Shown piece after piece: positions 34,778 through 54,695 of a stretch of DNA of 64,000 nt. The first letter of the stretch is position 1. Every line of letters starts with the position of its first letter. Below the pieces are notes generated by a model, which saw only the letters and a program-made list of their open reading frames with translations, made no database searches and had not been told where the DNA came from. The stretch comes from Burkholderia pyrrocinia (GTDB taxonomy: Bacteria > Pseudomonadota > Gammaproteobacteria > Burkholderiales > Burkholderiaceae): NCBI RefSeq assembly GCF_022809715.1, contig NZ_CP094459.1, positions 1,488,001 through 1,552,000 of the forward strand, given 5' to 3'. Made by a program: the position numbers and the translations under genes.

Positions 34778-36712
34778 ATGAGCGATCAAACGCAAGCCAC
34801 TTCGGGGCGGCGCGACGAACGGCGCGCCCACGCATCGCAGTTCGACCTGCTGCGCGAGCGCCGTTTCGCACCGTTCTTCACGACCCAGTTCCTCGGCGCG
34901 CTGAACGACAACGTCTTCAAGATCGGCTTCACGTCGCTCGTCACCTATCACACAGCACGGTTCTCCGGTGTCGACGCGAAGACCGCCGCATTCCTGATTT
35001 CCGCGATCTTCATCCTGCCGTTCGTGCTGTTCTCGGCGACGTCCGGCCAGATCGCCGACAAGTACGACAAGGCGACCCTCACGCGCTTCGTGAAGACCTT
35101 CGAGATCGTGCTGATGCTGGTCGGCGCGGCCGGCTTCGTCACGCACAGCGCGGCCCTGCTGTATCTGTGCACGTTCATGATGGGGATGCACTCGACGCTG
35201 TTCGGGCCCGTCAAGTATTCGTACCTGCCGCAACATCTCGGCGAGCACGAACTGGTCGGCGGCAACGGTCTCGTCGAGATGGGCACGTTCATCGCGATCC
35301 TGATCGGCACGATCATCGGCGGCGCGGCCGCTGGCATCGAAGGCAGCGGCGAGCGCGTGCTCGCGGTGAGCGTCGTCGTCATCGCGATCGCGGGGCGGCT
35401 CGTCTCGCAGCGCGTGCCGTCCACGCCGGCGCCGCAGCCCGATCTCGCGATCAACTGGAATCCGTTCAGCGAGACCTGGCGCAACCTCGGGCTCGCGCGG
35501 CAGAACCGCACCGTGTTCCTGAGCCTGCTCGGCATCTCGTGGCTGTGGTTCGTCGGCGCGACGTTCCTCACGTCGTTCTTCAATTTCGCGAAGGACGTGC
35601 TGTCCGCGAGCCCCGACGTCGTCACGATCCTGCTCGCGACGTTCTCGGTCGGCATCGGCCTCGGTTCGCTGCTGTGCGAGCGCCTGTCGCAGCGGCGCGT
35701 CGAGATCGGCCTCGTGCCGCTCGGCTCGATCGGCATCAGCGTGTTCGCGATCGAACTGTATTTCGCGAGCCACGCGCTGCCGTCGCCCGGCCACCTGCTG
35801 TCGGTCGGTGAATTCCTGGCCGGCGCGCGCCACTGGCGCATCCTCGCCGACCTGTTCCTGCTCGCGATGTTCGGCGGCTTCTACAGCGTGCCGCTGTACG
35901 CGCTGATCCAGAGCCGCAGCGCACCGACGCACCGTGCGCGGATCATCGCCGCGAACAACATCCTGAACGCGCTGTTCATGATCCTGTCGGCCGTGATGGC
36001 GATGGGGCTGACCAAGGCCGGCGTCGGCATCCCGGGCCTGTTCCTCGTCACCGCGCTGCTGAACGTCATCGTCGCGGCGTATATCTACCTGCTCGTGCCC
36101 GAGTTCCTGCTGCGCTTCGTCGCGTGGGTGCTCGTGCACACCTTCTACCGGATTCGCCTCGTGCACGCGGAGCGGATTCCGGCGGAGGGTGCGGCCGTGC
36201 TCGTCTGCAACCATGTCAGCTATGTCGATGCGCTCGTGCTGGCCGCCGCGAGCCCGCGCCCGATCCGTTTCGTGATGGATCACCGGATCTTCAAGACGCG
36301 CTTCGCGAGCTGGGTGTTCCGGCATGCGAAGGCGATCCCGATCGCGCCGCGTCACGAGGACCCCGGGATGCTCGCGCGCGCGTACGACGCGTGCGAGGCC
36401 GCGCTGAAGGACGGCGAACTCGTGTGTATCTTCCCCGAGGGCAAGCTGACGAAGACGGGCGACATCAACACGTTCCACCACGGCATCACCGAGATCCTGA
36501 GCCGCACGCCGGCGCCGGTGATTCCGATGGCATTGCGCGGATTGTGGGGCAGCTATTTTTCGCGGCATTCCGATGCGCGGATGCCGCGGCCCATCAAGCG
36601 CGGCGTGATGAGCCGGCTGACGCTGGCGGTCGGCGAGCCGATTCCGGCGTCGGTCGCGACGCCCGAATCGCTGCAGGCCGCGGTGACCGAGCTGCGCGGC
36701 GCTCGGAAGTAG
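34778..36712 (+). CDS. MFS transporter fused to PlsC acyltransferase
   Basis: A 644-residue fusion. Residues ~25-435 form an LplT-like major facilitator domain with about 12 helices ([41 protein letters not shown]). Residues ~445-640 form a lysophosphatidic acid acyltransferase domain with the catalytic NHVSYVD motif (HX4D) and [11 protein letters not shown]. In E. coli, LplT and Aas import and re-acylate lysophosphatidylethanolamine. Fusing both activities suggests a one-protein lysophospholipid flip-and-repair system. No acyl-ACP synthetase domain is present, so acyl-ACP or acyl-CoA must be supplied. Confidence 0.9.
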
Positions 36713-50953: not shown

Positions 50954-50982
50954 TTGCCAAACCGATAGCAGCTCCATATAAT
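50954..50982 (+). promoter_or_regulatory. Promoter of tRNA-Val (and possibly the thrS operon)
   Basis: TTGCCA (50954-50959, 5 of 6 consensus) and TATAAT (50977-50982, perfect) are separated by exactly 17 bases. Transcription would begin near 50989, a few bases before the tRNA. It is the best sigma-70 promoter in the window. Confidence 0.85.
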
Positions 50983-50994
50983 TTCAGCTTCTCT

Positions 50995-51071
50995 AGGCTC
51001 GTAGCTCAGCTGGTTAGAGCACCACCTTGACATGGTGGGGGTCGTTGGTTCGAGTCCAATCGAGCCTACCA
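50995..51071 (+). tRNA. tRNA-Val (GAC)
   Basis: A 77-nt tRNA with a 7-bp acceptor stem (AGGCTCG with CGAGCCT), GCTC...GAGC D-arm, anticodon stem CCACC/GGTGG with loop TTGACAT (anticodon GAC at 51029-51031), a variable loop and TTCGAGTCC T-loop, and an encoded 3' CCA at 51069-51071. It reads GUC and GUU valine codons. The sequence is near-identical in pattern to E. coli tRNA-Val GAC. It lies just upstream of the thrS leader. Confidence 0.97.
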
Positions 51072-51144
51072 ACGAATTGAGAATGCCCGGTCTCCGGGTG
51101 TTCGATGCAGTAAATAGCTCAACGCGAACAAGGCGAATACGGTT

Positions 51145-51189
51145 ATGACACCGCGAACGTTGACCGAAACCACTTCGGAGCGACGCTAG
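51145..51189 (+). CDS. Candidate threonine-rich leader peptide of thrS
   Basis: ATG at 51145 opens a 14-codon frame ending in TAG at 51187-51189 and reading MTPRTLTETTSERR. Codons 2, 5, 7, 9 and 10 are threonine (ACA, ACG, ACC, ACC, ACT), five of fourteen. AAGG lies 11 bases upstream (51130-51133), a weak-to-fair ribosome-binding site. The stop codon is 41 bases before a strong intrinsic terminator and 153 bases before the thrS ATG. Leader peptides rich in the cognate amino acid followed by a terminator are the classical attenuation design. Too short for similarity support; assigned by arrangement. Confidence 0.6.
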   Translation: MTPRTLTETTSERR

Positions 51190-51245
51190 TCGAGGAACGT
51201 TTTCGCCCTTTCAGTTTGAGTGAAGTATCGAATGCGGCCCCTCGA
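51190..51245 (+). promoter_or_regulatory. Possible antiterminator pairing in the thrS leader
   Basis: TCGAGG (51190-51195), just after the leader peptide stop, is complementary to CCTCGA (51240-51245), which spans the end of the terminator left arm and its loop. A ribosome paused at the Thr codons (51148-51174) would leave TCGAGG free. One reaching the stop codon would cover it and allow the terminator to form. Only six base pairs are seen, so this is tentative. Confidence 0.4.
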
Positions 51246-51266
51246 AAGCGGGGCCGCATTTTTTTT
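51231..51266 (+). terminator. Intrinsic terminator/attenuator upstream of thrS
   Basis: An 11-bp perfect stem (51231-51241 with 51250-51260), GC-rich core GCGGCCCC/GGGGCCGC, 8-base loop TCGAAAGC, and a run of eight T at 51259-51266. It lies between tRNA-Val and thrS, where a normal terminator would also be useful for the tRNA transcript. The threonine-rich open frame upstream makes an attenuator reading attractive. Confidence 0.85.
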
Positions 51267-51342
51267 GTCGCGAAAATTCCGCGCGTGACTTTTACATCGC
51301 GTGCCTGGTCTGCCGCCCACTGTCGGCATCACGGAGATTGGT

Positions 51343-53250
51343 ATGGTTTCGATACGCTTGCCTGACGGCTCAGTTCGACAATACGAGCATCCGGTGACAG
51401 TTGCCGAGGTTGCAGCCTCGATCGGTCCCGGCCTTGCGAAGGCTGCGCTTGGTGGCAAGCTCGACGGCGAACTCGTCGATACGTCCACGGTGATCGACCG
51501 CGACGCGTCGCTCGCCATCGTCACGGACAAGGATGCCGACGGCCTCGACATCATCCGTCACTCGACGGCGCACTTGCTCGCATACGCGGTGAAGGACCTG
51601 TATCCGGATGCGCAGGTGACGATCGGCCCCGTGATCGACAACGGCTTCTATTACGACTTCTCGTATAACCGTCCGTTTACGCCGGAAGATCTGGAAAAGA
51701 TCGAAAAGCGCATGCAGGAACTCGTGAAGAAGGACGAGCCCGTGACGCGCCGTGTCGTGTCGCGCGACGAGGCCGCGGGTTATTTCCGCAGTCTCGGCGA
51801 GAAGTACAAGGCCGAGATCATCGAGTCGATTCCGCAGAGCGACGAAATCAAGCTGTATTCGCACGGCGGCTTCACCGATCTGTGCCGCGGCCCGCACGTG
51901 CCGTCGACCGGCAAGCTGAAGGTCTTCAAGCTGATGAAGGTCGCGGGCGCGTACTGGCGCGGCGATTCGAAGAACGAGCAGCTGCAGCGCATCTACGGCA
52001 CGGCCTGGACCAAGAAGGAAGACCAGGATCAGTATCTGCACATGCTCGAGGAAGCGGAAAAGCGCGACCACCGCAAGCTCGGCAAGCAGCTCGATCTGTT
52101 CCACATGCAGGAAGAGTCGCCGGGCATGGTGTTCTGGCATCCGAAGGGCTGGGCGCTGTGGCAGCAGGTCGAGCAGTACATGCGCCGCCGCGTGAACGAA
52201 GCCGGCTACCTCGAGATCAAGACGCCGATGATCATGGACCGCTCGCTGTGGGAAGCGTCGGGCCACTGGCAGAACTATCGCGAGAACATGTTCACGACGG
52301 AGTCGGAGAAGCGCGACTACGCGATCAAGCCGATGAACTGCCCGGGGCATGTCCAGGTGTTCAAGCACGGCCTGCGTTCGTACCGCGATCTGCCGCTGCG
52401 TTACGCGGAATTCGGCTCGTGCCACCGCAACGAGGCGTCGGGCGCGCTGCACGGCCTGATGCGCGTGCGCGGCTTCGTGCAGGACGATGCGCACATCTTC
52501 TGTACGGAAGATCAGATCATTGCCGAGTCGATCGCGTTCAACAAGCTCGCGATGAGCGTGTACGGCGATTTCGGCTTCGATCACATCGACATCAAGCTGT
52601 CGCTGCGTCCGGAGCAGCGCATGGGTTCCGACGAAACGTGGGATCGTGCCGAGCAGGGCCTGCGTGAAGCGCTGACGGCGTGCGGTCTTCAGTGGGAAGA
52701 GCTGCCGGGCGAAGGTGCGTTCTACGGTCCGAAGATCGAGTACCACATCAAGGACGCGCTCGGCCGTTCGTGGCAGTGCGGCACGCTGCAGCTCGACATG
52801 ATGCTGCCGGAACGCCTCGGCGCCGAGTACGTGGCGGAAGACAACAGCCGCCGCCGGCCCGTGATGCTGCACCGTGCGATCGTCGGTTCGATGGAGCGAT
52901 TCCTCGGCATTTTGATCGAGCACCACGCTGGTGCGATGCCGGTCTGGCTCGCGCCGATGCAGGCTGTTGTGCTCAATATCGCCGAAAGTCAGGTCGAATA
53001 TGCGCAATCTCTGGCCCAATCGTTGCAAAAACAAGGGGTTAGAGTGACGGCGGATTTGCGCAACGAGAAGATTAGCTATAAAATACGCGAGCACACGCTG
53101 GAAAAGGTGCCTTATCTCCTCGTCGTGGGCGATAAGGAGCGTGATGCGCAAACGGTAGCCGTGCGTGCCCGTGGCGGCGTCGATCTTGGCGTGATGCCGG
53201 TCGATGCCTTCGTTGAGCGTCTGCAGGAAGACCTGCGCTCGTTCAAGTAA
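51343..53250 (+). CDS. thrS: Threonyl-tRNA synthetase
   Basis: A 635-residue class II synthetase. TGS domain (1-60), editing domain N2 (~65-220, with [34 protein letters not shown]), catalytic core (motif 2 around [29 protein letters not shown], motif 3 with GTLQLD and [18 protein letters not shown]), and an anticodon-binding domain (~530-635). GGAG precedes the ATG by 7 bases; a longer in-frame start at 51301 is not supported. It is the first gene of thrS-infC-rpmI-rplT and lies after the leader and terminator described above. Confidence 0.97.
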
Positions 53251-53299: not shown

Positions 53300-53824
53300 A
53301 TCGCTACTGATAAGTCGTCGCATCGCATCAACGGTGAAATCACTGCGCCGGAAGTGCGTCTGGTCGGGATCGAGAACGAACCGCTCGGTATCGTAAAACT
53401 CGCTGATGCTTTCCGTAAATCGGAAGAACTGGATGTTGACCTGGTGGAAATCGCGCCGCAAGCGGTTCCCCCGGTTTGCCGTCTGATGGATTACGGCAAG
53501 TTCAAGTACCAGGAATCGAAGAAGCAGCACGAAGCGAAGCTGAAGCAGAAGGTCATCCAGGTCAAGGAAGTCAAGTTCCGCCCGGGTACCGATGACGGGG
53601 ATTACAACGTCAAGCTCCGCAATCTCGTGCGCTTCCTCGAAGAGGGCGACAAGACGAAGATCACGTTGCGTTTCCGCGGTCGCGAAATGGCTCACCAGGA
53701 AATCGGTATGCGGATGCTTGAGCGTCTGCGCACGGATCTCGAGGAAGTCGGCCAGGTCGAGCAGATGCCGAAGATGGAAGGGCGCCAGATGATCATGGTG
53801 CTCTCGCCGAAGAAAAAGAAGTAA
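53300..53824 (+). CDS. infC: Translation initiation factor IF-3
   Basis: A 174-residue IF-3. The conserved N-terminus [31 protein letters not shown] begins at an ATC codon at 53300, nine bases after GAGG; no ATG, GTG or TTG gives this start. E. coli infC begins with ATT and uses the rare codon for autoregulation by IF-3, so ATC probably serves the same purpose here. The N domain (~1-80) and C domain (~90-174, [43 protein letters not shown]) are complete. Confidence 0.95.
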
Positions 53825-54670: not shown

Positions 54671-54695
54671 GGGGCTCTTCCGAGCCCCTTTTTTT
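54671..54695 (+). terminator. Terminator after rplT
   Basis: GGGGCTC (54671-54677) pairs with GAGCCCC (54682-54688) around TTCC, followed by TTTTTTT (54689-54695). It may be the end of the thrS-rplT transcript or attenuate pheST. No Phe-rich leader peptide like E. coli PheM was found before it. Confidence 0.85.

Follow-up and report, generated by a model that had tools for sequence, protein, structure and literature searches.

Amino acid operons of enterobacteria, such as the thr operon of E. coli (Rfam Thr_leader), are controlled by leader-peptide attenuators, and pheM/pheST of E. coli is a leader-peptide attenuator of synthetase genes. For thrS other solutions are known: in E. coli, the textbook example, the synthetase controls its own translation by binding tRNA-like arms near the thrS start, with no leader peptide, and in Bacillus thrS is under T-box control, which involves direct binding of the tRNA. 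No paper was found whose title or opening of the abstract names a leader-peptide attenuator of thrS; a 2010 survey by Lopatovskaya et al., reportedly devoted to synthetase attenuation, may already predict it.

That survey is cited in a passage of PMC4833913. Streptomyces leuS and trpS2 appear in part of PMC1262725 as leader-peptide attenuators of synthetase genes, and a section of PMC2965389 presents the bacillar genes hisZ and hisS* as having His leader peptides and also names the self-regulation of E. coli thrS. Table S3 of PMC5688073 reportedly lists 82 short 5' UTRs from B. cenocepacia, and the thrS leader may be among them.

Anatomy of the tRNA-Val to thrS Gap

The window, i.e., the whole 64,000-nucleotide stretch of Burkholderia pyrrocinia DNA analyzed, contains a tRNA-Val gene (50995-51071) followed by thrS (ATG at 51343). 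In the gap between them, the original prediction had located a 14-codon frame with five Thr codons (51145-51189), a TCGAGG segment (51190-51195) able to pair with CCTCGA (51240-51245), and an 11-bp terminator with eight T, and direct reading of the letters confirmed the frame, the match between the two segments, the terminator, and the coordinates of each (Table 1). The frame reads ATG ACA CCG CGA ACG TTG ACC GAA ACC ACT TCG GAG CGA CGC TAG and specifies the peptide MTPRTLTETTSERR, in which five of the 14 residues are Thr. The terminator stem is made of 51231-51241 and 51250-51260, with the T run at 51259-51266, the first two T of which belong to the stem, while CCTCGA sits in its upper stem and loop. 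Thus, from 5' to 3', the gap holds a hairpin adjacent to the tRNA, the frame, TCGAGG directly after the stop codon, and the terminator. Both G of the candidate Shine-Dalgarno sequence AAGG are nearly invariant in an alignment of 46 sequences, and a 42-base piece of the leader has, at up to three mismatches, a single occurrence in the genome from which it comes.

Table 1. Positions of the Features Identified around the thrS Leader (Coordinates of the Window)
Feature	Position	Strand	Basis or remark
Sigma-70-like promoter, TTGCCA-17-TATAAT	50954..50982	+	11/12 matches; upstream of tRNA-Val
tRNA-Val (GAC) gene	50995..51071	+	ARAGORN; Rfam RF00005, 67.6 bits
10-pair hairpin directly 3' of tRNA-Val, without U tract	51081..51103	+	Fold
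AAGG, candidate Shine-Dalgarno sequence of leader ORF, spacing ~11 nt	51130..51133	+	Overlaps long-range stem
Long-range stem, GGCGAA 51132-51137 with TTCGCC 51202-51207	51132..51207	+	Predicted, no-ribosome fold
Leader ORF MTPRTLTETTSERR with five Thr codons, ending in TAG	51145..51189	+	Sequence and comparison; predicted
Hairpin within ORF, CGTTG/CGACG and CCGAA/TTCGG	51158..51185	+	Alignment pairing
Antiterminator hairpin, TCGAGG 51190-51195 with CCTCGA 51240-51245 and further short helices	51190..51245	+	-18.9 kcal/mol, predicted
Intrinsic terminator, 11-12 pair stem and eight T	51230..51266	+	-24.0 kcal/mol
Short hairpin TGCCG/CGGCA, loop CCCACTGT	51311..51328	+	Just before thrS Shine-Dalgarno sequence
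thrS Shine-Dalgarno sequence GGAG	51333-51336	+	Sequence
thrS, threonyl-tRNA synthetase	51343..53250	+	NCBIfam thrS 748 bits, cutoff 384

A gene of the relA/spoT family lies upstream of the tRNA-Val, leader, and thrS region, and thrS is followed by infC, an L35-like frame, rplT, pheS, and pheT; NCBIfam profiles name thrS, infC, rplT, pheS, and pheT, and L35 was recognized by eye. If these downstream genes are co-transcribed with thrS, IF3 and two ribosomal proteins would follow the threonine signal.

Some further observations concern the surroundings of the leader. The short hairpin before the thrS Shine-Dalgarno sequence has an 8-base loop that is identical in 43 of 121 family loci. infC seems to start at a rare ATC codon at 53300 (GAGGAAACGTAAC, then ATC GCT ACT GAT AAG), which is in frame with GTG 53354, the choice of the ORF finder; from this GTG, the NCBIfam infC profile matched only from its position 16. 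The infC gene of E. coli has a rare start codon, too. Between rplT and pheS there is a terminator-like hairpin, GGGGCTC-TTCC-GAGCCCC with a T run (54671-54695), and no obvious Phe leader was seen near it. Finally, the Burkholderia sRNA Bcj11 was matched by Rfam at 35481-35602 (56 bits, gathering score 49).

Spread of the Leader

The Thr leader is present in all 64 congeneric thrS upstream regions compared (thrS was searched in 65 genomes, and G057 was left out); two second thrS copies with no tRNA-Val end before them (L065 and L066) are outside the counts, and L067-L070 were also unused. Beyond the genus, in loci that were hand-picked to span groups and not at random, the leader occurs in 60 of the 70 family loci examined outside Burkholderia (22 genera), being absent from 10, and, as judged by reading, in 18 of 40 loci from 39 other Burkholderiales families, whereas a CGAAC-core frame together with a terminator is missing from all 20 loci of the other orders in the class. 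The order loci were drawn from at least 238 matching genomes and the other-order loci from the closest of 84. Counting Burkholderia, 15 of the 23 family genera sampled have the leader in at least one genome and eight do not; seven of these eight have genomes smaller than 3 Mb, the exception being g5 (3.8 Mb), and yet genera g21 and g22, with genomes below 3 Mb too, retain it. The scope of the original prediction (Burkholderia, Paraburkholderia, and Ralstonia) was too narrow, as the leader reaches many Burkholderiales families.

As for the other orders, L318 has a four-Thr frame that ends just before thrS and is devoid of a T run, and three further loci have frames with three Thr. A tRNA-like word is found within 160 nt before thrS in 14 of the 20 other-order loci, and the tRNA neighbor may therefore predate the leader.

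The 17-base core word GTTATGACACCGCGAAC was also searched in genome_contigs, which represents 84,980 species by a single genome apiece, giving at least 120 matches (119 stretches and that in the genome of the window). In 115 of the 120 matches listed, tblastn detected a same-strand thrS 117-309 nt farther downstream; in two more (L250 and L259) inspection by eye shows its start where the available DNA ends, another (L261) has only 46 bases of downstream DNA, and two are in unrelated places, one in Deltaproteobacteria and one in a Melioribacteraceae assembly. Among the matches listed, most of the 80 named hosts are Burkholderiales, and the hosts include Variovorax, Acidovorax, Rhodoferax, Massilia, Janthinobacterium, Cupriavidus (with a strain of C. 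necator), Paraburkholderia, and others.

In two of the congeneric genomes there is an additional full-length thrS (G014:C4:3477679-3479556 and G050:C488:14818-16686; 57-58% identity), and a ThrRS-like frame, from residue ~240 on and with 50-53% identity, occurs in at least 19 of the 65 congeneric genomes. One guess is that the extra ThrRS copies provide self-resistance to ThrRS inhibitors.

Conservation of the Frame and of Its Threonine Codons

Among the 55 distinct leaders of the core group, Thr5 and Thr7 are present in 55/55 and Thr9 in 47/55, and the Thr9 position uses all four Thr codons. The two leaders that lack the usual ATG have another one in frame upstream. Codon 10, located at the loop of the hairpin within the ORF, varies freely, and some synonymous sites are constant, as codon 4 is CGA, codon 5 is ACG, and codon 14 is CGC, each in 55/55. 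A terminator conserved next to an unconserved Thr frame had been named at the outset as evidence against attenuation, and the core group shows instead a frame in which Thr5 and Thr7 never vary.

The peptide differs in more distant leaders, and its richness in Thr is kept (MTSVFSATTTTTTTPLAW in the family, MSFRTTTTGTLNLG in the order). The core word fixes MTPRT, and Thr enrichment was counted only beyond residue 5: among the matches listed, Thr accounts for 193 of 866 residues (22.3%) beyond this fixed core in 98 distinct peptides, compared with 2.7% in the other two frames and 4.2% in the stretch from the stop codon to the terminator. In the same peptides, Thr is found in 70% at residue 6 and in 50% at residue 7, both outside the core. 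Regarding codon choice, ACA and ACT together make up 3 of 112 Thr codons in five genes of the window, and both occur once in the leader; in the pattern leaders among the matches listed, no Thr codon is more frequent than ACT.

A terminator follows within 110 nt of the stop codon in 111 of the 114 analyzable loci among the matches listed; L189, with too little upstream DNA, was excluded, and L197, L245, and L301 have no terminator by the rule used. Some leaders contain just one or two Thr codons, and at L160 and L163, from two other families, a strong terminator lies between the tRNA and thrS without a recognizable Thr leader, the sensor having possibly been lost while the terminator was kept. 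The expectation that frame and terminator are conserved together held in the core group, and the strand next to the stop codon changes jointly with the terminator farther out; L160, L163, and the leaders with few Thr speak against it.

The word CGAAC, i.e., the Arg codon CGA and then Thr, is found in most leaders, those with few Thr included, and is absent from g21 and g22. CGA accounts for 5 of the 221 Arg codons in five genes of the window. CGAAC was considered as a universal pairing arm and rejected, as its partner varies among the folds of 111 untranslated leaders: it lies downstream of the stop codon in 47, within the ORF in 26, upstream of ATG in 10, and in the terminator in three, and CGAAC is mostly unpaired in 25.

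Antiterminator and Other RNA Helices

The predicted antiterminator is an imperfect hairpin, larger than the six pairs first proposed, and it has its tabulated stability before the 3' arm of the terminator is made. In the core genera, the six TCGAGG/CCTCGA pairs are formed in 95.6% of 270 cells, compared with 20-69% when the strands are slid. No two-sided change was found in the antiterminator within the core group, which is too conserved for this test; therefore, the claim of covariation rests on the comparison between groups, where g24 combines TCAAGG and CCTTGG, and L101 of g21 combines GGTGAGC and GCTCACC.

Two swap tests gave the same picture, in that the strand at the stop codon is a better match for the terminator of the same leader than for the terminators of other genomes. 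The mean was -10.73 compared with -8.99 (sd 0.39) in the first test, with 33 groups and 0 of 20,000 permutations as strong, and -13.38 compared with -11.75 (sd 0.23) in the second, with 94 leaders and 0 of 5,000 permutations as strong, although the groups are related and the permutation counts are not exact probabilities. In the first test, 142 loci were reduced to one per group and L136 was left out by hand; it kept L159, which has the wrong hairpin, and L176 and L182, which are probably not leaders, and its result was weakened thereby. Pairing with the terminator is best 0 to +4 nt from the leader stop codon.

Two other helices can be followed in the alignment. The hairpin within the ORF is paired in 96.7% of 460 cells, compared with 29-56% when slid, and three cells have a two-sided change; the long-range stem GGCGAA/TTCGCC is paired in 90.5% of 275 cells, and covariation was not found for it within the core group.

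Promoter and Transcription Unit

Of 121 family loci, 117 have a sigma-70-like site with at least 9/12 matches ahead of tRNA-Val, and none was found between the tRNA and the leader (0/121). A strong promoter between the terminator and thrS was likewise rejected, with no such site in any of the 121 loci. Shuffled sequences reach 9/12 in 4, 2, and 1% for these three intervals, respectively, so that the presence upstream is telling and the absence elsewhere is weak evidence; besides, the scan is blind to weaker sites and to other kinds of promoter. The site at 50954..50982 in the window likely promotes a transcript of tRNA-Val, leader, and thrS, as judged from its sequence and placement, and tRNA-Val is probably co-transcribed with the leader and thrS.

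Among the matches listed, 66 of 109 pattern loci have the leader and no tRNA in the 250-400 nt upstream, and the other 43 have tRNA-Val; therefore, the terminator is not just that of the tRNA. For the stretch directly 3' of tRNA-Val (51081-51103 in the window), 87 of the 106 distinct relatives have a folding energy that is lower than that of mononucleotide shuffles by over 1.5 sd, and the hairpin recurs among relatives with differing sequences. It may mark the 3' processing of a joint tRNA-mRNA transcript.

Ribosome Positions and Proposed Mechanism

The alternative folds were modeled on the nascent RNA before the 3' arm of the terminator is made, with the ribosome placed at each Thr codon or at the stop codon and only the RNA downstream of its edge being folded. 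The edge was set at +16 from the first P-site base, and the antiterminator was scored as formed at three or more expected pairs in 34 hand-chosen loci (33 in the shuffle and edge tests). With these settings, and depending on the edge and on the pairing rule, the modeled antiterminator forms in 32 of 34 loci with a Thr-stalled ribosome, in 5 of 34 with the ribosome at the stop codon, and in 8 of 34 with no ribosome. In the Thr-stalled state it forms in 31 of 33 real leaders, compared with 35.5% of 660 shuffled ones. At the stop codon, it forms in 21 of the 33 with the edge at +12, in 14 at +14, in 5 at +16, and in none at +18. When pairs across the ribosome were allowed, the window leader gave 0.0-1.5 antiterminator pairs for stalls from Thr5 to Thr10, and the downstream-only folding that replaced this rule is a choice that favors the attenuator hypothesis.

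With no ribosome, the window leader forms 0.0 antiterminator pairs; this default-off state is not general, because 8 of 34 loci do form the antiterminator and real leaders average more pairs (1.99) than shuffles (0.86). Once the whole terminator has been made, the fold with the ribosome at Thr10 still prefers the terminator at equilibrium, and antitermination would therefore have to be kinetic, during transcription. With its antiterminator at Thr stalls and mostly a terminator at the stop codon, the model would agree with the switch between alternative folds that the original prediction implied, but this depends on the edge and on forbidding pairs across the ribosome, and the complete terminator wins at equilibrium.

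The proposed mechanism is as follows. Transcription would start upstream of tRNA-Val and continue through the leader. With Thr-tRNA in good supply, the leading ribosome would reach TAG (51187-51189) and cover the 5' strand of the antiterminator, allowing the terminator to form. When Thr-tRNA is short, the ribosome would stall at Thr codon 5, 7, 9, or 10 and leave the strand after the stop codon free to pair with the 5' arm and loop of the terminator before the 3' arm is made, so that the polymerase would proceed into thrS. If the leader is untranslated, that of the window is predicted to tie up the antiterminator strand and to give the terminator by default.

Interpretation and Alternatives

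The thrS leader has the parts of an attenuator: an ORF with Thr codons, the cognate gene downstream, an intrinsic terminator between them, and an antiterminator that covaries between groups. The original proposal of an attenuator is supported by the comparison, through conservation, Thr enrichment, and the joint change of antiterminator and terminator. The best reading is that of a classical ribosome-mediated transcription attenuator, for which a response to threonine is predicted; it is very probably correct, given the established anatomy, conservation, Thr enrichment, antiterminator-terminator co-change, and promoter placement, to which the folding adds three modeled RNA states that would depend on the ribosome (Thr stall, stop codon, and no ribosome).

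One alternative holds that the terminator merely ends the tRNA-Val transcript, that thrS has a promoter of its own, and that the short frame is there by accident. Some terminator would be expected behind tRNA-Val anyway, L160 and L163 keep one without a recognizable Thr leader, and weak promoters or those of another kind would escape the scan; nevertheless, a site of at least 9/12 is absent between terminator and thrS from 121/121 loci while present upstream of tRNA-Val in 117/121, 66 of 109 pattern loci among the matches listed have the leader and no tRNA in the 250-400 nt upstream, and the Thr codons and the antiterminator pairing are conserved, making this highly improbable and the least probable of the three alternatives. 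Instead, the leader might be an RNA bound by a protein or a metabolite, or an operator of translation of the kind found at E. coli thrS, with the frame only overlapping a conserved RNA. The frame, its start, and its stop are kept, however, Thr9 is encoded by all four codons, distant leaders are alike in Thr richness rather than in RNA sequence, no Rfam family reaches its threshold, and the thrS-proximal hairpin has no Thr anticodon in a 7-nt loop in 121 loci, so that even with the strong nucleotide conservation at synonymous sites (codons 4, 5, and 14 in 55/55) and the recurrence of CGAAC in distant leaders this explanation is highly improbable.

The remaining alternative does accept the leader ORF as functional, and proposes that it stalls the ribosome by its nascent peptide or by a rare codon in the Arg-Thr core, or that it blocks Rho, and does not sense the supply of Thr-tRNA. 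The intrinsic terminator that follows in 111 of 114 loci among the matches listed, the frequency of Thr at residues 6 and 7 (70 and 50%), outside the fixed core, and the leaders of g21 and g22, which have Thr runs and no Arg-Thr core, all oppose it; in its favor are the greater constancy of the Arg-Thr core compared with the Thr count, the leaders with only one or two Thr, and the rarity of CGA (5/221 Arg codons in five window genes). It is highly improbable as well, if slightly less so than the other two.

Attenuation governed by Thr-tRNA thus remains the preferred reading, and a more elaborate form of it can be considered. Because CGA is rare and the core is kept even in leaders with one or two Thr, a compound sensor may operate on the CGA-AC(G/T) Arg-Thr core, in which CGA decoding or the CGAAC RNA would time the ribosome versus the polymerase or add a second input. 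Furthermore, because the only strong promoter match precedes tRNA-Val, each attenuation event may in addition give a tRNA-Val precursor and, with it, a short terminated RNA that could act elsewhere. This extended version is speculative and rather unlikely.

The Thr leader before thrS, a probable leader-peptide attenuator, is present in many Burkholderiales families, and no earlier description of it was found in Rfam or in the titles and abstract openings of the papers searched. It offers a compact test system, as antiterminator and terminator have co-changed between groups.

Comparison with Known Systems

No cis-regulatory family of Rfam was found at gathering score in the leader, the matches in the window being two tRNAs and Bcj11, and the hits within the leader are at chance level (e.g., L20_leader, 17.8 bits versus a threshold of 58.7). 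Identity with the Rfam Thr_leader was rejected, as no covariance model matched at the curated threshold, and so was a T-box, for lack of a covariance-model match in the leader. An operator of the E. coli type was searched through its anticodon-like loop alone, and none of 121 loci has a 7-nt loop with a Thr anticodon in the hairpin nearest to thrS when the preceding 57 nt are folded.

The E. coli thrS operator serves the same gene and purpose, with a Thr-anticodon loop of a type not found here; a leader-peptide attenuator before thrS, if true, is a different solution for the same gene. The T-box of Bacillus thrS is alike in sensing the charging of Thr-tRNA via transcription termination and differs by its direct binding of the tRNA. 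The hisZ and hisS* leaders, as presented in the section of PMC2965389 mentioned above, also place a synthetase-type gene under a cognate leader peptide, and differ in belonging to histidine and to Firmicutes. Closer in design are pheM/pheST and, going by the corresponding part of PMC1262725, leuS and trpS2, which have a leader with cognate codons before a synthetase gene, a terminator, and an antiterminator; they differ in amino acid and bacteria, and the likeness considered here is one of design. Finally, the attenuator of the E. coli thr operon shares with the Burkholderia leader a short Thr-rich ORF, an intrinsic terminator, a competing antiterminator, and the position of the ribosome as sensor, whereas here the gene controlled would be that of a synthetase and not of biosynthesis, there is no Rfam match, the stop codon of the leader is where the antiterminator strand begins, and the leader follows, in Burkholderia, a tRNA-Val gene.
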